Part shown: in pieces, positions 122 to 34,847 of the stretch
Layout: each line of letters begins with the position of its first letter
How positions within the stretch are numbered: the first letter of the stretch is position 1
Source: a virus
Direction: 5' to 3' (one strand)
Length of the DNA: 34,847 nucleotides
Virus record (IMG/VR): IMGVR_UViG_3300030380_001803
Span: 1-34,847 of that record
The notes under the pieces: generated by a model
What the model saw: only the letters and a program-made list of their open reading frames with translations
Told to the model about the DNA's origin: nothing
The model's database searches: none
Made by a program: the position numbers and the translations under genes

Positions 122-438
122 GTAACAAACCCAGTAACAAACCACACTTGTCTGTCAGCAAGTTTATGATGGGCGAAAAAGAGTATCGCTTGTCTGGCTG
201 GTTTAGTCCCAACGGACTATGGAACGAAGAAAAAAGTAGGTTCGACCCTATATCGCAAGCGCAAGAAGCGACGATCCGCGAAGCGGTAAATATACTGGCA
301 AAGAACCAGATCAATTTACGCTGCACCATCCAGGCACGACAAGGCGACGACGTGCGTAACTTTCCAAACGTCGCAAAATTCACACTGTACCCAAATACAA
401 TCGAAGCAACTACGAGTATCGACGATGACTTCAGTTAA
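118..438 (+). CDS. Conserved small early phage protein, possibly ssDNA-binding
   Basis: This is a 106-residue protein translationally coupled to the annealing-like protein by an ATGA overlap. I recognise no named family. The middle is mixed alpha/beta (EYRLSGWFSP, then AQEATIREAVNILAKNQ, then VAKFTLYPN), and the protein ends in an acidic tail with a near-terminal Phe (SIDDDFS). Such tails are typical of phage and bacterial ssDNA-binding proteins, where they recruit partners. With an exonuclease and annealing protein just upstream, a role in recombination or ssDNA handling is a reasonable inference. A divergent copy of its first 39 codons lies at the window end. The N terminus here carries a 12-bp tandem duplication (SNKPSNKP) absent from that copy. 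Confidence 0.7.
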   Translation: MSNKPSNKPHLSVSKFMMGEKEYRLSGWFSPNGLWNEEKSRFDPISQAQEATIREAVNILAKNQINLRCTIQARQGDDVRNFPNVAKFTLYPNTIEATTSIDDDFS

Positions 439-664
439 TCTAGTACACCAAGTATTTTTGGACAAGCTAGTCTTTGATACCAAGGACGCTGCAAAAATTT
501 TGTTTGGTAAGGACGATGACAAAGCCAGACGTAAGGTTCGACGCTTGGTTACAAATGGTATATTGGAAAGCCACAGACGACCAACAGAATATGAAGGACC
601 ATCACGATCAAATATTTACATTTCAAAGCGATCATTGGAAAGATTTTTGAAATATGAAAGATGA
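425..664 (+). CDS. Excisionase-like winged-helix DNA-binding protein
   Basis: This 79-residue protein starts inside the end of the preceding gene (14-nt overlap) and overlaps the next start. It has the layout of MerR/excisionase-type helix-turn-helix proteins: a DTKDAAKILFG helix, a basic recognition segment (KARRKVRRLVTNGILESHRR), a short wing (SRSNIYISKR) and a last helix (SLERFLKYER). Such proteins commonly act as recombination directionality factors or small regulators. It is the only Xis-sized DNA-binding protein in the early operon, so I infer it may direct excision with the integrase, and it is the best candidate for binding the 10-bp GTCATA arrays. Neither role is shown by sequence alone. 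Confidence 0.7.
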   Translation: MTSVNLVHQVFLDKLVFDTKDAAKILFGKDDDKARRKVRRLVTNGILESHRRPTEYEGPSRSNIYISKRSLERFLKYER

Positions 665-1026: not shown

Positions 1027-1394
1027 GCCATGTCCTTTCGTATCAGCGGATGCTGGTGAAAGGTTAGACTATCGTTCAGATCTTCGATCGACATGGTGGG
1101 TGGCACGGTTTCGCCTTCTTCGTCGATGCCCGTCACCAATGCCATACCCGCAAGTTCCTTGCCTTCGGGATAATAGAGAGATTTGATTTTCCATAGAAAT
1201 ACAAACTTAGGTCTAAACAAACCTTCATCGTCGACCCATACGACGTGCTTGTCGTCCAGGTCAACAGCGTCAATGGTATTGCAGCGAATTGCCCTAGCTG
1301 TTTCCTGGTAATCACCAATGTACGAATACTTGATTTGCATCACAGCTTTCTTGATCGGGTCGATCAGATACGCTCTTGTGTCCATGTAATTCAT
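1023..1394 (-). CDS. DUF3846-like phage protein downstream of integrase
   Basis: This 123-residue protein has its ATG inside the integrase stop (ATGA at 1391-1394), so it is co-transcribed and coupled to int; an in-frame Met at 1385 is an alternative start. The order of segments (RAYLIDPIKKAVMQIKY, an AIRCNTIDAVDLDD stretch, VVWVDDEGLFRP, then LAGMALVTGIDEEGE) resembles the DUF3846-like proteins widespread in phages, whose function is unknown. It is acidic and appears soluble, with no signal peptide or membrane segment. The position behind int may only mean shared expression in lysogeny establishment. The family assignment is by eye and moderately secure. Confidence 0.65.
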   Translation of the reverse strand: MNYMDTRAYLIDPIKKAVMQIKYSYIGDYQETARAIRCNTIDAVDLDDKHVVWVDDEGLFRPKFVFLWKIKSLYYPEGKELAGMALVTGIDEEGETVPPTMSIEDLNDSLTFHQHPLIRKDMA

Positions 1395-2551
1395 TGTACT
1401 TGCTCCGCGATGTGTCCCAATCTTTCATTGAGTAAATCTTTTGCTGCAATTTTTTCGTCTTTGTTTTCAATCCAATGACCGTAAGTGTCGATGGTTGTTC
1501 TGATGCTTGCGTGACCGATGTACGTTTTAACTCTATTCCAATCGTTGCCGTACACCTTCAAAAACTGTGACGCACAGTAGTGTCTTAGATCGTGCCAGCG
1601 TATAGGGTTTACTCCAGCTTTTTTACACGCACTTTTCATAAGGGCAGAAAATCTAGTGTGTGACATAACTCTGCCAGTGCCAGATGGAAACACAAGTTTT
1701 TGGCTTCCGTATTGCAGCTTGTACTGTTTCATAAGAGTGCAAATAAAGCCAACCATAGGAACTTTACGCATCCCCGCTTTTGTTTTTGTTGATTGCTTCA
1801 AGTCAAAAGATACTGTTTGAAAATATTCACCAGTTTTTTTGTCACGCACATATTCACTTTTGTTGATAATACTTTTGTTGACTGTCACTTCTTCTTCTAC
1901 AAAATCAATATCGTCCCAGGTCAATGCACGAAGTTCACCTTGACGCAATCCAGTGTAGGCGGAAAACAAAACCATCGTCCTTCTATGTGTGGGCAGCACG
2001 TCTGCTATTTTGTGAATGATATCTTCTGATATTTTAACAAGATCTTTTCGCTCGCTGTCTTTAGTTCGTATTACAACCCCTTCTTTGAGATTGTTAAACG
2101 GGTTTTGTGATATCACGCTTTCTTCGATGGCAAATTCTAATGCTTGACGAAAGACCGCTATAAAACCCTGGACAGTTTTTCTTGCTCTACCATCCCTTAT
2201 CCCACGCACAAGGGTAGTAATATCACCAACAACAAACTCTGCAACTTTCATCTCTACCAGCGGTCTACCAGCAACTATGATGCTGCTAACAGTGCGTAAG
2301 GCACGTTCTTTGTTATGATGGTCTTTTCCGTACTTTTTTATTTCATCAAGAAATTTTTCAAAAAGAATGTGGAAGGTCCAATCTATATTATCTCTGCTCT
2401 CCTCTCGCACACCCTCTATTTGTCTACGAACTTTTTCCAGATGCTTTTCGGCTTTACTGATTGTTTCGAAATCTTTTCTGCCCATCCCTACAGATCTTAA
2501 ATCGACTTGGTATCTTGCGTTACCATGATTGTATACTTTTCTTATTTTCAT
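1391..2551 (-). CDS. int: Tyrosine-family site-specific integrase
   Basis: This 386-residue phage integrase catalyses strand exchange between phage and host attachment sites. Residues 1-55 are a small beta-rich, basic arm-binding-type domain (KIRKVYNHGNARYQVDLRS). Residues 60-150 fit the SAM-like core-binding domain, and residues 170-365 the catalytic domain. The active-site set is visible: R203 (TGLRQGELRAL), a Lys in the beta hairpin near 255-263, H320 and R323 (RWHDLRHYCAS), H347 (YIGHASI) and the nucleophile Y357 (TIDTYGHW). Length is normal and all residues are present, so it should be active. A GAGGATAAA ribosome site precedes the ATG. The upstream promoter is overlapped by a TTGACG palindrome (2569-2585), implying repressor control. 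The attachment region lies just upstream. Confidence 0.95.
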   Translation of the reverse strand: MKIRKVYNHGNARYQVDLRSVGMGRKDFETISKAEKHLEKVRRQIEGVREESRDNIDWTFHILFEKFLDEIKKYGKDHHNKERALRTVSSIIVAGRPLVEMKVAEFVVGDITTLVRGIRDGRARKTVQGFIAVFRQALEFAIEESVISQNPFNNLKEGVVIRTKDSERKDLVKISEDIIHKIADVLPTHRRTMVLFSAYTGLRQGELRALTWDDIDFVEEEVTVNKSIINKSEYVRDKKTGEYFQTVSFDLKQSTKTKAGMRKVPMVGFICTLMKQYKLQYGSQKLVFPSGTGRVMSHTRFSALMKSACKKAGVNPIRWHDLRHYCASQFLKVYGNDWNRVKTYIGHASIRTTIDTYGHWIENKDEKIAAKDLLNERLGHIAEQVQ

Positions 2552-2568: not shown

Positions 2569-2585
2569 TTGACGTTATTCGTCAA
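2569..2585. promoter_or_regulatory. Operator palindrome at the int promoter
   Basis: The sequence TTGACG-TTATT-CGTCAA is a perfect 6-bp inverted repeat. It overlaps the presumed int transcription start, 18-34 nt upstream of the int ATG. It is the most symmetric of seven sites sharing TTGACG-N5-CG in the window. Confidence 0.7.
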
Positions 2586-2613
2586 ATATAGGGCGAAAAA
2601 AAACAAATTGCAA
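2585..2613 (-). promoter_or_regulatory. Likely int promoter
   Basis: On the minus strand, a -35-like TTGCAA (2613-2608) is followed after 17 bp by TATATT (2590-2585). The start point would fall at about 2578, inside the operator palindrome. Confidence 0.5.
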
Positions 2614-2733
2614 GTGGTAACAGGGCTGCAACCTGTACCCCGTCTGCCAAAAAAACACCAAAATTTGGCAGCAGACTTGGCAGCGGACGTCCAGTAGACA
2701 GTGTTAAGTTATTGATATATATAGGGAAAAGAG

Positions 2734-2765
2734 TGGTAGGGGGTACAGGACTCGAACCTATACCC
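2734..2765 (-). other. tRNA 3'-end-like sequence, candidate attP core
   Basis: Read on the minus strand it contains GGTTCGAGTCC, a 5-bp T stem, a 7-nt acceptor strand and an encoded CCA at 2736-2734. Upstream sequence does not form anticodon or D arms, so it is not a whole tRNA. The parent tRNA isotype cannot be told from this piece. Confidence 0.6.
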
Positions 2766-2770
2766 TGGGT

Positions 2771-2869
2771 GTCATACCTGGTCATAAAATGTCATAAAGT
2801 GTCATATTCATTAGGGTATGATGGTCATAAGTGGTCATACTTGGTCATATCTTTTCATACTTGGTCATA
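2771..2869. repeat. Helically phased GTCATA repeat array (attachment region)
   Basis: GTCATA starts at 2771, 2781, 2791 and 2801 (exact 10-bp period), then at 2824, 2834, 2844, 2854 (degenerate TTCATA) and 2864. The second block has consensus TTGGTCATAC. Same-face spacing suggests cooperative binding by a protein such as Int arm-binding domains or Xis. An 18-bp piece (2833-2850) is repeated exactly at 31301-31318. Confidence 0.85.
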
Positions 2870-30710: not shown

Positions 30711-31127
30711 TCACAGCTTGTAATACAAGCGAATAAGAGCATCCGTATACTTACGACGCACTGTGCGATGATCGACACGCATTTTGCGTCCCAAAGCAGA
30801 CCAGCGAGGGCCACGTTCGTTGAACGCTGCGCTATGCGCTACTGCCCAAATCAGTCGTTTGTCGTCCGCATCCATGTTCGTATCGTTAAGTATATCCATA
30901 GCCAATTCAAATCGCGTGACTTGCTCTGGTGTTGCTTTTGGTAACGACGGTGTGAAATCATGCCAGCCATAACTTTCCCATGTTTTTACGTACTCCACCC
31001 AGCTTGACATCTTTTGTTTGCGAATAGCGGGTGGTAGCTTTCGTTCTGTTTCTGCTGCTTCAAGAAACAACGCATCAAGTGCTGCCATGTCACGCAGCCG
31101 TTCGTCATTCTTTTCCCTGACACTCAT
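30711..31127 (-). CDS. DUF6362-like protein with C-terminal HTH
   Basis: This 138-residue protein has a charged N-terminal half (ERLRDMAALDALFLEAAETERK...), a central WVEYVKTWESYGW motif, and a C-terminal helix-turn-helix: ADDKRLIWAVAHSAAFNERGPRWSALGRKMRVDHRTVRRKYTDAL. This matches the DUF6362-type proteins of alphaproteobacterial phages. A DNA-binding role, in regulation or packaging, is likely; it is the first gene after the strong late promoter at 31232-31261. Confidence 0.8.
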   Translation of the reverse strand: MSVREKNDERLRDMAALDALFLEAAETERKLPPAIRKQKMSSWVEYVKTWESYGWHDFTPSLPKATPEQVTRFELAMDILNDTNMDADDKRLIWAVAHSAAFNERGPRWSALGRKMRVDHRTVRRKYTDALIRLYYKL

Positions 31128-31231
31128 GCTTAGTCACGCTTAACTAGACACGCTTTGCGTGTAGTGTTTTTAGATACCAGTTTTGAGTGCAATACTTTGA
31201 GTGCATAGCTATGCCTTATGCGCCTTCGGCG

Positions 31232-31261
31232 ATTGTAACGACCGCCCAAAATTTCTGTCAA
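31232..31261 (-). promoter_or_regulatory. Strong sigma70-type late promoter
   Basis: On the minus strand a perfect -35 TTGACA (31261-31256), an 18-bp spacer and a -10 TACAAT (31237-31232) precede the DUF6362-terS-terL gene run. The start would be at about 31225, giving a ~100-nt leader that contains an ACACGC/GCGTGT hairpin (31148-31162) and a TTTGAGTGCA direct repeat (31182, 31196). Confidence 0.7.
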
Positions 31262-31281: not shown

Positions 31282-31319
31282 GTCGCATAGTGTCATACAA
31301 GGTCATACTTGGTCATATA
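31282..31319. repeat. Phased GTCATA repeat array upstream of the late promoter
   Basis: GTCATA begins at 31292, 31302 and 31312, with a degenerate unit at 31282, all 10 bp apart. This is about 57-93 bp upstream of the inferred late start, on one face of the helix. It shares GGTCATACTTGGTCATAT exactly with the attachment-region array. Confidence 0.85.
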
Positions 31320-31495
31320 CCCAGTATTTTTTTTATCCAGCGTCGCCAGGCTGGTACAGTTTCGTCATCGTGCCAGAACTTCTGCTGAAACAAAACGTCT
31401 TCTGTTTTCTCTTCAACGGGCTGCTTGACCACTTTCTTTTTGGGTGCTGGTTTGGCTGCTTTGGTTTGGTCTTTCCTTGGTCTTCCTCTTGGCAT
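31313..31495 (-). CDS. Small AT-hook protein
   Basis: This 60-residue ORF begins with an AT-hook (MPRGRPRKDQ), then a Lys/Ala/Pro-rich stretch and a C-terminal amphipathic part (VPAWRRWIKKILGI). The ATG has a good ribosome site (AAGGTGA) although it lies inside the end of the nuclease gene (83-nt overlap in a different frame). AT-hooks bind the minor groove of AT-rich DNA, so this is probably a DNA-binding accessory protein. Its 3' end overlaps the GTCATA array. Confidence 0.65.
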   Translation of the reverse strand: MPRGRPRKDQTKAAKPAPKKKVVKQPVEEKTEDVLFQQKFWHDDETVPAWRRWIKKILGI

Positions 31496-31916: not shown

Positions 31917-32129
31917 CTAGCCACGCTCGATAAAGAAGTCATTCGGCTGCACTTCCCCCTTTGTCAGTTCAATAATACGGGACATGTAACGCTGCCTGGG
32001 TACAAGCCTATCCTTATGATCCATAGGCAAGCACCAGCGTCTAGCCATCTGTGCGTGTCCCGCATCGAGCAGATGTGCCAGCTGACCATAAGACCAGTTT
32101 TTCATTTTTCTATAGTCGTCTAACGTCAA
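31917..32129 (-). CDS. Cro-like transcriptional regulator
   Basis: This 70-residue protein is divergent from the CI-like repressor. TLDDYRKMKNWSYGQLAHLLD, then GHAQMARRWCLP, forms a helix-turn-helix, and YMSRIIELTKGEVQPNDFF is the classic C-terminal end of small Cro-type phage regulators. The TTG start at 32129 is chosen because the family typically starts with a TL(D/E)xYR segment; an internal ATG at 32105 would remove part of helix 1. An operator-type site overlaps its first codons (32113-32129). It probably turns down repressor and early promoters during lytic growth. Confidence 0.82.
   Translation of the reverse strand: MTLDDYRKMKNWSYGQLAHLLDAGHAQMARRWCLPMDHKDRLVPRQRYMSRIIELTKGEVQPNDFFIERG
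32113..32129 (-). promoter_or_regulatory. Operator-like site at the cro start
   Basis: TTGACG-TTAGA-CGACTA on the minus strand overlaps the first codons of the Cro-like gene and has the TTGACG-N5-CG spacing of the other sites. Confidence 0.55.
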
Positions 32130-32171
32130 TTTTCAAAATCCTACGATTTTAGTCATGTTACCTAGTAACAC

Positions 32172-32207
32172 ATTATATCTTGACGTTTAACGTACAGTCA
32201 ATATAAG
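32172..32207. promoter_or_regulatory. Overlapping divergent promoters of the lysogeny switch
   Basis: Plus strand: TTGACG (32180-32185), 16 bp, TATAAG (32202-32207), driving the repressor. Minus strand: TTGACT (32201-32196), 18 bp, TATAAT (32177-32172), driving cro. The two overlap almost fully and share an operator-like site at 32180-32196, so occupancy by either RNA polymerase or regulator excludes the other. Confidence 0.75.
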
Positions 32208-32252: not shown

Positions 32253-32942
32253 ATGAACAAATTAGGACTTCAAAGGGTACTGCCCCTACAACTTATGGAC
32301 GATAGTATGTCTGGTGAACTTCTCCGTCGTGCGATCGAACGACGAGGTATAAAGAAAAAGCATGTAGCGCAGAAAAAAGGTATCGAGCAAGGTACGCTGT
32401 CGCGCCAGCTATCGGGTAAACACTCGCTTACACTCAAAGATCTGCGTGAGTATGCCGATATTCTGGAATGCGAATTCGAAGAATTAATCATTGATATACA
32501 GCCAATGGATATTATTGGCGATCATTCCGACGGAAACATTTATGTGGGCGACGTAACAGATAAAATAAGGCAAATCGTGCCACCCATGACTTTACCAGCT
32601 TCCTATAAATGTATATGGGAAGATCGTGGACCCCAGAACAACATGCTGCATATTTTCAATGGTAATCACATGCTGTCTGAAGGTTCAATAGATCAATCTT
32701 GTTTTACGCAGTTGTGCGTATACAAAGTCCCCCAAAACGAATTTTTACGATTGAAAAATTTAAACGATAGCTGGGTTTCTGTAATTAACATGGGGTATCT
32801 TTACCCCGAACCTAGCGGTAAATTTACCATTGGTTCTGCCGTTACACCAGGTCGTCAGCGACAAGGCATTGAAATTGTTTGGGCAGCACCAATCATTGCA
32901 TCTTTTCATTCTCCGCTAACATTAGGATGGCAGCTTAAATAA
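32253..32942 (+). CDS. CI-like phage repressor
   Basis: This 229-residue protein has an XRE-type helix-turn-helix (about residues 20-80: GELLRRAIERRGIKKKHVAQ, then EQGTLSRQLSGKHSLTLKDLREYADIL) and a beta-rich C-terminal half that may be a dimerisation or ligand domain (YKCIWEDRGPQNNMLHIFNGNHM... SWVSVINMGYLYPE). I do not see a clear LexA-type Ser-Lys cleavage pair, so RecA-dependent cleavage is not supported. GAGGA precedes the ATG. It opens the early plus-strand operon, but operators downstream separate it from the exonuclease genes. It is predicted to bind the TTGACG-N5-CG sites. Confidence 0.82.
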   Translation: MNKLGLQRVLPLQLMDDSMSGELLRRAIERRGIKKKHVAQKKGIEQGTLSRQLSGKHSLTLKDLREYADILECEFEELIIDIQPMDIIGDHSDGNIYVGDVTDKIRQIVPPMTLPASYKCIWEDRGPQNNMLHIFNGNHMLSEGSIDQSCFTQLCVYKVPQNEFLRLKNLNDSWVSVINMGYLYPEPSGKFTIGSAVTPGRQRQGIEIVWAAPIIASFHSPLTLGWQLK

Positions 32943-32947
32943 TTAAG

Positions 32948-32999
32948 TTGACGTTTCACGACAAAACTTGTTGACGCAAAACGTACATTAACTTAATCT
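32948..32999 (+). promoter_or_regulatory. Early promoter with two operator-like sites
   Basis: TTGACG-TTTCA-CGACAA (32948-32964) and TTGACG-CAAAA-CGTACA (32971-32987) lie between the repressor and the exonuclease. The second TTGACG (32971-32976) can serve as -35 with a weak -10 TAATCT (32994-32999, 17-bp spacing). Confidence 0.55.
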
Positions 33000-33027: not shown

Positions 33028-33972
33028 ATGATTGATTCCGACGTACAATGGGCATCACGACACAGCTATTATCACCACAGTAATTACCGTAGACGCAGCA
33101 AGACAGATATATTCTTTGAGAAGTGCTACGTTCGACCGCTGGTAAACGATGCCTGGACGGTTATAAAATCAAATGAAGCAACACCCGAACAAAAAGCGGA
33201 TTGCTGGCGCATCATAAAAATACTGGACAAAAAGCAGAACGGCGACGATAACGCAGCGATGATGGCGGGACGTGTGGTCCAGGCGATCTGCGACATGGTG
33301 CTGCTTGATAACGTGGATATATCACAAGCTACAGCTGCGGGAATGGAACAAGCTATGGCATACGAACCGAACACCTGGCTCAAGAACGATAAAGAAAATA
33401 AAGATATGCAAGTGGACCACATACCCGACATAGCAAAGAACGCTATCGTCGGTCTGAAAGAAGCCATGCACAAAGCCAATAGGTATATTGGCGAACAAGA
33501 ACTATTTGGTGTACTACCAGGCAACAAGCTGCCCTACTCCACCTTGCCAGACTATGATGTACGGGGTGATCTCAAAGTCAAAACATACACAATAGCCAAT
33601 ACAAAATCGGGATACAAACGGGCATCGCTACCCACCAAACTGCGCGGAAGTCCGTGGCTTGAAAATAACTTATCCCAGGTGGCTGGAATGTGGGCATTGA
33701 ACAACCATAAGCCACCGTTCTTACTGTATGCCAGCAAAGATGATTATAGGCTGCTGACAGCCGAAAATTGCGACTGTCTGCACGAAGATAACCTACGCTT
33801 GTATGTCAGTGATGCCGTTGCAAAGAATATGGCGATCGAACTGAAGCTGCAAAAGGCAAACAACTTGAAAGAATTATTGGCAGACGAACTGCCAGATTTT
33901 CACGACTGGTTTAGAAAGCCACCCGAATATATCAAACATGCCGAAGAACTATGGAGGTCATATCATGGATGA
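33028..33972 (+). CDS. PD-(D/E)xK exonuclease-like recombination protein
   Basis: This 314-residue protein is probably a phage 5'-3' exonuclease paired with the annealing protein that follows. Visible elements are AGRVVQAICDMVLLD (residues 80-94, resembling the first motif of RecB/Cas4-type nucleases), PDYDVRGDLKVKTYTI (175-190, acidic residues followed by two lysines) and NLSQVAGMWALNN (a QxxxY-like helix, 214-226). The order fits the PD-(D/E)xK fold, though substitutions make it divergent. The N terminus is rich in His/Tyr/Arg. It overlaps the annealing-protein start by 8 nt. AGGA precedes the ATG. Confidence 0.7.
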   Translation: MIDSDVQWASRHSYYHHSNYRRRSKTDIFFEKCYVRPLVNDAWTVIKSNEATPEQKADCWRIIKILDKKQNGDDNAAMMAGRVVQAICDMVLLDNVDISQATAAGMEQAMAYEPNTWLKNDKENKDMQVDHIPDIAKNAIVGLKEAMHKANRYIGEQELFGVLPGNKLPYSTLPDYDVRGDLKVKTYTIANTKSGYKRASLPTKLRGSPWLENNLSQVAGMWALNNHKPPFLLYASKDDYRLLTAENCDCLHEDNLRLYVSDAVAKNMAIELKLQKANNLKELLADELPDFHDWFRKPPEYIKHAEELWRSYHG

Positions 33973-34732
33973 TGTCATCAAACAATTGATGAAAGATTTA
34001 GATTTAGATTTTAACGATAACACCTGGGAAGTTAAACACGGTGGCAGAAGCGTTACATGCGTAAAACATAAAGCATTGGAAAAAATTGCAGCGCATAAAC
34101 AAATTAGGTTCGATCCCCCCGCCATGATTGCCAACGATCCCGACAAAAGAGTGGCAGCGATGTGTGTGACGGGACACCTGGGCGATCGAGCAGAATGGGC
34201 GATAGGCGAAGCGTCACCAGGTAACAACAAAAATAATTATCCATACGCTATGGCAGAGAAACGTGCCAAAGATCGTGTGATACTCAAGCTGCTCAACATG
34301 GCTGGTGATTACTATTCGCAAGACGAAGCAGACGAATTTGAACAAGCTAAACCCTTAAACGTAGAACCACGCAAGAAAGATCCCGAACCCGAACCGCAGC
34401 CAGATCCCAAACCCGCAGCAGAAACAGAACCCGATGTCAAAGAACAAGTCCAGGAGTGGGCAAGCAAGGTTAACGAGGACGTGGAAAAGCCTAGCATGTA
34501 TAGTGCCGACCAACTTTTTATAGACCAGTTCAATAGACTGATGGAAGAACTAGATAACTGCAAACAACAGTCACATCTTAATGCCTGGAAAGAAGGTAAT
34601 AGACAATGGTTGGACAGATTTGGCAGCGATAAGCCAAAAGACTACCAAGAAATTCTTGGTTGGTACAAGGTTAAGAAAGCGCAGATTAAAACGGGCAATT
34701 TATCATCAATTAGAGAGGACATACCAATATGA
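33965..34732 (+). CDS. Single-strand annealing-like protein (ERF/Rad52-type)
   Basis: This 255-residue protein resembles phage ERF/Sak-like annealing proteins. The N-terminal domain has WEVKHGGRSVTCVKHKALEKIAAH, ANDPDKRVAAMCVTGHLGD and the NNYPYAMAEKRAKDRVILKLLNMAG block (about residues 91-114) with EADEF after it. A Pro/Glu linker (140-157) leads to a C-terminal domain with LDNCKQQSHLNAWKEGNRQWLDRFG and YQEILGWYKVKKAQI. It would pair with the exonuclease for recombination and concatemer formation. The ATG at 33965 (GGAGG eight bases upstream) is chosen over 33938. A divergent copy of its last codons opens the window. Confidence 0.68.
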   Translation: MDDVIKQLMKDLDLDFNDNTWEVKHGGRSVTCVKHKALEKIAAHKQIRFDPPAMIANDPDKRVAAMCVTGHLGDRAEWAIGEASPGNNKNNYPYAMAEKRAKDRVILKLLNMAGDYYSQDEADEFEQAKPLNVEPRKKDPEPEPQPDPKPAAETEPDVKEQVQEWASKVNEDVEKPSMYSADQLFIDQFNRLMEELDNCKQQSHLNAWKEGNRQWLDRFGSDKPKDYQEILGWYKVKKAQIKTGNLSSIREDIPI

Positions 34733-34847
34733 GTAACAAACCACACTTTTCCGTAAGCAAGTTCACGATGGGCGAAAAAGAGTATCGCTTGTCTGGCTGG
34801 TTAAGTCCCGCTGGTTTATGGAACGAAGATCAAAGTCGCTTTGATCG
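34612..34847. repeat. Imperfect direct repeat of the window start
   Basis: These 236 bases align with bases 1-248, including the end of the annealing gene and the start of the next gene. There are seven differences in the first ~126 aligned bases, then a 12-bp gap and further differences. Confidence 0.92.
34729..34847 (+). CDS. Start of small early protein, cut by the window end
   Basis: The first 39 codons (MSNKPHFSVSKFTMGEKEYRL..., then SGWLSPAGLWNEDQSRFD) of a divergent copy of the gene at 118-438, coupled by ATGA to the annealing protein. It lacks the 12-bp N-terminal duplication of the other copy and carries several substitutions, so it is not a simple assembly duplicate. Confidence 0.8.
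   Translation, partial: MSNKPHFSVSKFTMGEKEYRLSGWLSPAGLWNEDQSRFD

Follow-up and report, generated by a model that had tools for sequence, protein, structure and literature searches.

RDFs bind head-to-tail and cooperatively to repeats spaced one helical turn apart and bend att DNA (PMC7498355). The operators of coliphage 186 Apl are 6-bp direct repeats 10–11 bp apart, located at attP beside the Int sites and in a remote promoter region (PMC7498355). In phage P2, Cox shuts off transcription of the repressor gene; it is also reported to activate a late promoter of the satellite P4 (PMC5882170). Besides att, XisF4 of Pseudomonas Pf4 binds the promoter of the replication initiator and its own, but not those of PA0720 and PA0724 (PMC7379572), and RdfS of ICEMlSym R7A binds attP and several promoters, some of which it activates (PMC11963761). 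Head-to-tail binding to tandem repeats is also known for Pukovnik Xis and BldC (PMC7498355, PMC11963761).

The window analysed here is the whole 34,847-nucleotide stretch of a viral record (IMG/VR IMGVR_UViG_3300030380_001803, positions 1 to 34,847). It contains two arrays of the unit GTCATA in 10-bp steps, one beside a tRNA-like att core and one upstream of the late promoter. The explanation we favour, at a probability of about 0.62, is that one protein binds both arrays and regulates the late promoter, most likely by activating it. The features concerned are:

2734–2765, minus strand: tRNA 3'-end-like att core (T-arm and acceptor stem), read from the sequence
2771–2806, plus strand: block A of the att array, with four GTCATA units, all exact, one every 10 bp (sequence, shuffles)
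2824–2869, plus strand: block B of the att array, with five units, one every 10 bp, of which the fourth is degenerate (sequence, shuffles)
31282–31317, plus strand: late array, a degenerate GTCGCA and three exact GTCATA units in 10-bp steps (sequence, shuffles)
31232–31261, minus strand: late promoter TTGACA-N18-TACAAT at the head of the leftward virion operon (sequence, relatives)
425–664, plus strand: 79-residue winged-helix protein, proposed RDF/excisionase (Pfam, AlphaFold2, Foldseek)

As proposed, the winged-helix protein would resemble Apl in being a small DNA-binding excisionase with operator sets at attP and at a remote promoter (PMC7498355). The second set of Apl is situated between the early lytic promoter and the lysogenic one, both of which Apl represses, whereas that of the window lies upstream of the late promoter; moreover, Apl is the product of the first early gene, whereas the window gene is found further down the early operon. 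By analogy the protein may also be compared with Cox, a winged-helix excisionase that has several functions and whose repeated boxes occur both at attP and in promoters (PMC5882170), but the late promoter activated by Cox belongs to another element and its own sites are at the repressor/early switch. XisF4 binds att and activates a phage promoter, thereby tying excision to the lytic programme (PMC7379572), but it acts on the replication-initiator gene and on its own promoter. RdfS is a filament-forming winged-helix RDF acting at attP and promoters (PMC11963761); it belongs to a conjugative element and has no consensus motif, whereas the window presents a strict GTCATA code with exact spacing. 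The first-pass annotation had regarded a protein linking excision to late gene activation as an unusual control scheme. RDFs acting on remote promoters are already described (186 Apl, P2 Cox, Pf4 XisF4, RdfS), and the unusual part is narrower: no RDF array at a phage's own virion-operon promoter was described in the literature searched, the coverage of which was partial. Dual-site RDFs such as Apl, Cox and XisF4 are known; what would be new is a site at the promoter of the phage's own virion operon, the early switch having none.

The window has a GC content of about 0.40–0.47. Its ends overlap (positions 1–237 against 34612–34836, the first 237 and last 225 bases) with 86% identity, and an SSB-like gene looks complete at the start of the record and is cut at its end. 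In the relative L047 the homologue of gene 33938–34732 directly precedes the SSB-like gene, which is followed by the winged-helix gene. In view of this direct succession, we read the record as probably a circular genome closed across two strains, the overlapping ends of which carry strain variation; about 6.3 kb, including the early region, would then separate the two arrays. The large terminase subunit (TerL) is about 60% identical to that of HTVC010P-type pelagiphages, but the phage encodes an integrase and a CI-like repressor and has the tRNA-like att core. A search of INPHARED returned no near-identical phage. Further genes that frame the arrays are:

2911–31127, minus strand: leftward late operon (ORF list), its 3' end 42 bp past the att array
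32253–32942, plus strand: CI-like repressor gene (Pfam HTH_26/HTH_3; PHROG repressors)

The late operon begins with the gene of a DUF6362 protein (Pfam), followed by the small and large terminase subunits and by genes which we take to encode portal, capsid, tail and lysis functions.

The phased arrays are a real property of both places. Exact GTCATA units on the plus strand start at 2771, 2781, 2791, 2801, 2824, 2834, 2844 and 2864 in the att array, with a degenerate TTCATA at 2854, and at 31292, 31302 and 31312 in the late array, with a degenerate GTCGCA at 31282. The first-pass annotation had counted nine att units, one of them degenerate, in exact 10-bp steps; the number holds, and the step holds within each block only, since blocks A and B are 23 bp apart (2801 to 2824). 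It had also counted four late units, of which three are exact and the fourth (31282) is weak. The 18-bp segment that it had noticed at both loci is confirmed, with the same letters, GGTCATACTTGGTCATAT, at 2833–2850 and 31301–31318. Sixty first-order Markov shuffles of the window contained no array of at least three phased units. In a phased position-weight scan of the whole window the late array scored 40.9 and the att array 40.0, with only 2.4 at the next best position and a shuffle maximum of 10.7, so that nothing else in the window matches. The same scan revealed no phased units at the early switch (cI and early promoters), and the sole remote array is the one at the late promoter.

To follow the arrays in other phages, 2.9 million viral contigs were scanned for three phased GTCATA units. 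The scan yielded 52 stretches, of which 11 were relatives of the window phage by protein comparison. Both arrays, which the first-pass annotation had suggested looking for in related genomes, were present and phased, the late array in eight contigs and the att array in six, the window counted in each case. On a single contig both were found in L047 and the window only; the remainder of the L060 record contained no att region. In seven relatives and the window, the three exact late units lie 36, 46 and 56 bp from the start of the -35 element without exception. The att array of L017, L021, L025, L047 and L053 has the same two blocks and gap directly after the tRNA-like core, and in all five, block A is weak at its third unit and block B at its fourth. 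L021 and L047 are near-identical strains, as are L017 and L053, so that the att array is represented by four distinct sequences. A scan for relatives of the window Int returned none at close range. A scan of a genome collection with the terminase returned distant prophages only, with early and att genes at useful similarity in L094 only. CI was considered as the binder and is unlikely, its identity within the GTCATA clade spanning 47 to 100%.

Four other contigs (L034, L035, L038, L052) contain a phased repeat ATGTCATAAGTTGTCATAAGTTGTCATA, or a close variant, after ATGACAACAAA-type repeats, and three of them encode a DUF3310 homologue about 42% identical to that of the window. These repeats are possibly another att-type array.

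The late array is located about 57–92 bp upstream (-57 to -92) of the predicted start of the late promoter, a position that would suit upstream activation. The TTGACA-N18 promoter with its 18-bp spacer is kept in L007, L011, L014, L026, L033, L047, L051 and L060, and reads TTGACA-N18-TAAAAT in L061 and L062. The promoter is near-consensus, and such a promoter need not require an activator. Given binding, activation of the late genes is, judged by the position and the fixed spacing, somewhat better than an even guess. The opposite sign was considered as well: the same RDF might occupy both arrays and repress or delay the late genes, by blocking read-through from the VRR-nuclease/31313 operon or by covering the late promoter until the RDF falls. 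The late array indeed abuts the stop codon of the upstream leftward gene 31313–31495, between the VRR-nuclease/31313 operon and the late promoter, and Apl represses pR and pL and spreads to adjoining DNA (PMC7498355). The exact units, however, end about 30 bp short of the -35 element at an invariant spacing, which fits activation better than occlusion, and repression appears unlikely.

The leader of the late transcript (31128–31225, about 100 nt) is conserved and has direct repeats TTTGAGTGCA and a hairpin ACACGCTTTGCGTGT; it could contain a post-initiation control site.

The winged-helix protein had been put forward in the first-pass annotation as the best candidate for a single protein binding both loci. 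Its gene comes after the 33028, 33938 and SSB-like genes in the early operon. The protein matches Pfam HTH_17 at E 8e-4, under the curated cut-off. It had no PHROG match and no tblastn match in INPHARED, and a PDB sequence search with its alignment gave no credible match. Sister and distant homologues match the excisionase family 'excise' of NCBIfam, also under the cut-off. An AlphaFold2 model (pLDDT 73) has the order strand-helix-helix-strand-strand-helix, which is that of excisionases. The closest compact folds to this model in Foldseek were BldC and Pukovnik Xis (4j2n, 6ama, 6amk), with TM-scores by target length of 0.70–0.81 and E-values above 0.1; no match reached E 0.001. Sequence identity to these proteins is 15–22%, and the window model differs from them by a longer wing and an extra N-terminal helix. 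That the protein works like Apl and Cox is a stronger claim than that it is a member of their family, because the family cut-offs are not reached. The att arm has direct repeats one helical turn apart and distinct from the Int arm sites, as for an RDF. As for a dual-purpose regulator, one operator code is present at att and at a remote promoter (18-bp identity, phased code); unlike in 186 and P2, no remote operators are found at the early lytic and lysogenic promoters.

A further line of evidence comes from a sister clade (L061, L062, L063, L139, L141, L142, L147) with the gene order of the window. No GTCATA arrays were found in this clade, and the winged-helix protein at the matching locus, where the early region is covered, is about 25% identical to that of the window; in L063 it is encoded at 2450–2680. 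Its att arm reads TCACACCACA GGATTACAAC GTACCAGAAC GCATAAAAAC and its late region TCACACGAAG GGATAGCATC GAACAACAAC GGGTCAGAAG; the two have in common another code, likewise with a 10-bp period, the best of the periods 7–14 tried. The shared phased-information score between them was 6.6–6.9, against a shuffle mean of 3.9 and maximum of 5.75 (reached in 0 of 1000 shuffles). Random segments were taken from the same genomes with the true att and late regions masked, and none of 2000 matched the att arm as well as the clade's own late region did. In the reverse control, with random segments against the sister late region, 7–9 of 2000 reached the score, compared with 0 of 2000 on the att side. The late region of L060 scored 5.74 with the sister att arm, which none of 1000 shuffles reached. 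In the sister clade the late promoter retains the N18 spacer, and the array there starts within about 2 bases of the equivalent position. This comparison comprises one att sequence and two late variants, and its support is moderate. The code appears to have switched jointly at two distant sites as one small DNA-binding protein diverged; a joint switch together with winged-helix divergence is what one shared binder would predict. The conservation of the arrays at both loci in relatives and this joint switch argue that one protein probably serves both, and the divergence of the winged-helix protein at the locus where the motif switched supports its candidacy. Binding of both arrays by the winged-helix protein is in our judgement highly probable.

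In the more distant L065/L066 clade a winged-helix protein is encoded at the same position. The signal for a shared array was weak (9–13 of 1000) and the motif unconvincing, and the clade was left out of the count; the late site is not universal, because L065 and L066 lack a convincing shared array. The att arm of L066 (1500–2525) has GTTAAGGGAT units in 10-bp steps and an inverted copy, with no copy seen at the L066 late promoter; these units are perhaps the RDF sites of that clade.

Another conserved phage protein, such as the DUF6362 protein (30711–31127), the AT-hook-like protein (31313–31495) or the 31917–32129 protein, or else a host nucleoid protein, could bind both arrays instead. Host factors, IHF among them, have a general role at att sites. 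All three phage proteins are conserved in the clade, and the AT-hook-like protein has no match in the sister clade, where the motif differs. An AT-hook, however, is not expected to read a GTCATA code, and the DUF6362 protein is 77–78% conserved in the sister clade although the motif there has changed completely. Head-to-tail 6-bp direct repeats, one per helical turn, are moreover the reported binding mode of winged-helix RDFs (PMC7498355). A binder other than the winged-helix protein is consequently improbable.

The att region also bears on the N-terminal domain of the integrase, the second candidate of the first-pass annotation. The features on both sides of the core are:

1391–2551, minus strand: tyrosine integrase (Pfam PF00589, E 3e-23; PHROG integrase)
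2585–2613, minus strand: predicted int promoter TTGCAA-N17-TATATT (from sequence)
2642–2651: inverted copy GTCTGCCAAA of the putative Int arm repeat (from sequence)
2665–2688, plus strand: putative arm-type repeats for Int, TTGGCAGCAGAC / TTGGCAGCGGAC, on the side of the core that faces int
2876–2883: partial copy TTGGCATC of the putative Int arm repeat on the opposite side of the core

Of the two arms, the GTCATA array lies in the one opposite int, which becomes attR; there it is flanked by the core and the distal arm repeats. The Xis sites of lambda are likewise on the arm away from int, forming attR. Arm-type binding by the Int N-terminal domain would agree with an array that adjoins the att core and has phased repeats. 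In each relative, however, other repeats stand on both sides of the core, and these vary: TTGTCGTTA in L017/L053, TTGTCACCAA in L025, TGGCATTA in L047/L021, TTGGCAGC in the window and TGGCGAC in the sister contig L141. Outside their first 48 residues the Ints of L025 and L053 are 97% identical, within them 77%; the repeats beside the core are not the same (TTGTCACCAA in L025, TTGTCGTTA in L053), and the GTCATA arrays are nearly so. GTCATA is also the same in the five att-array relatives, whose Ints are 43–47% identical to that of the window and whose tRNA cores differ. Since the flanking repeats track the Int N-terminal domain and GTCATA stays constant, the variable repeats are likely the arm-type Int sites, and the GTCATA array would belong to something that stays fixed when Int changes. 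As binding by Int would also leave the late array unexplained, the integrase is a very improbable binder.

Several other elements were observed around the core. ARAGORN detected no complete tRNA in the window, and an Rfam search of it returned nothing. Three T-arm-like copies are present (2602–2640, 2727–2765, which is the core, and 2871–2909), the outer two partial and with inverted-repeat stems; the copy at 2880–2909 might also terminate the late transcript. Core-like pieces stand beside the core in relatives too, and the left piece of L047 resembles the core of L053 and not its own, as if these pieces were relics of earlier att cores. A complete tRNA-Asn (GTT) gene lies between the att arm and the lysis genes in L047 (7122–7196), L021 (1515–1589) and L141 (229–303); the window has none. 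An operator-like palindrome, TTGACGTTATTCGTCAA, is located just downstream of the predicted int promoter (2569–2585) and kept in relatives, with similar half-sites around cI and the early promoter (32117–32201, 32948–32990). The palindrome and half-sites are probable CI operators, which would hold int off in the lysogen.

That the two arrays are unrelated repeats or functionless duplication relics is scarcely credible: about 40 unrelated viral contigs also have three phased GTCATA units, so that such arrays do arise elsewhere (these contigs, apparently tandem repeats or other contexts, were set aside as evidence), but both places are conserved, with fixed spacing and a joint motif change in the sister clade.

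The arrays are thus best explained as head-to-tail sites for one phage protein, the winged-helix RDF encoded at 425–664; we infer the identity of the binder, its excisionase activity and the sign of its late effect as parts of this explanation. The protein would be produced from the early lytic operon after CI repression ends. At attP and attR, monomers would occupy the GTCATA units, which are spaced by 10 bp and separate the core from the distal Int arm sites, and the resulting bent filament would direct Int to excision, as in the case of Xis and Apl. At the late promoter the same protein would occupy the shorter upstream array, on a helical face that is fixed, and the filament would most likely stimulate RNA polymerase there. 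Excision and virion-gene expression would then answer to one protein.

From sequence alone, the comparison of relatives distinguishes RDF sites from the arm sites of Int, an approach that could be applied to other uncultured phages. The natural variants of the operator code, with matching diverged proteins, would allow direct swap tests of how filament-forming proteins read DNA. A tentative extension, for which the odds are somewhat below even, is that the excisionase of this phage group is also its late-gene activator, replacing dedicated late regulators, and that the operator code co-evolves with it. If the proposed explanation is true, this kind of temperate marine phage couples excision to late expression through one small protein, and needs no separate late regulator at this point.
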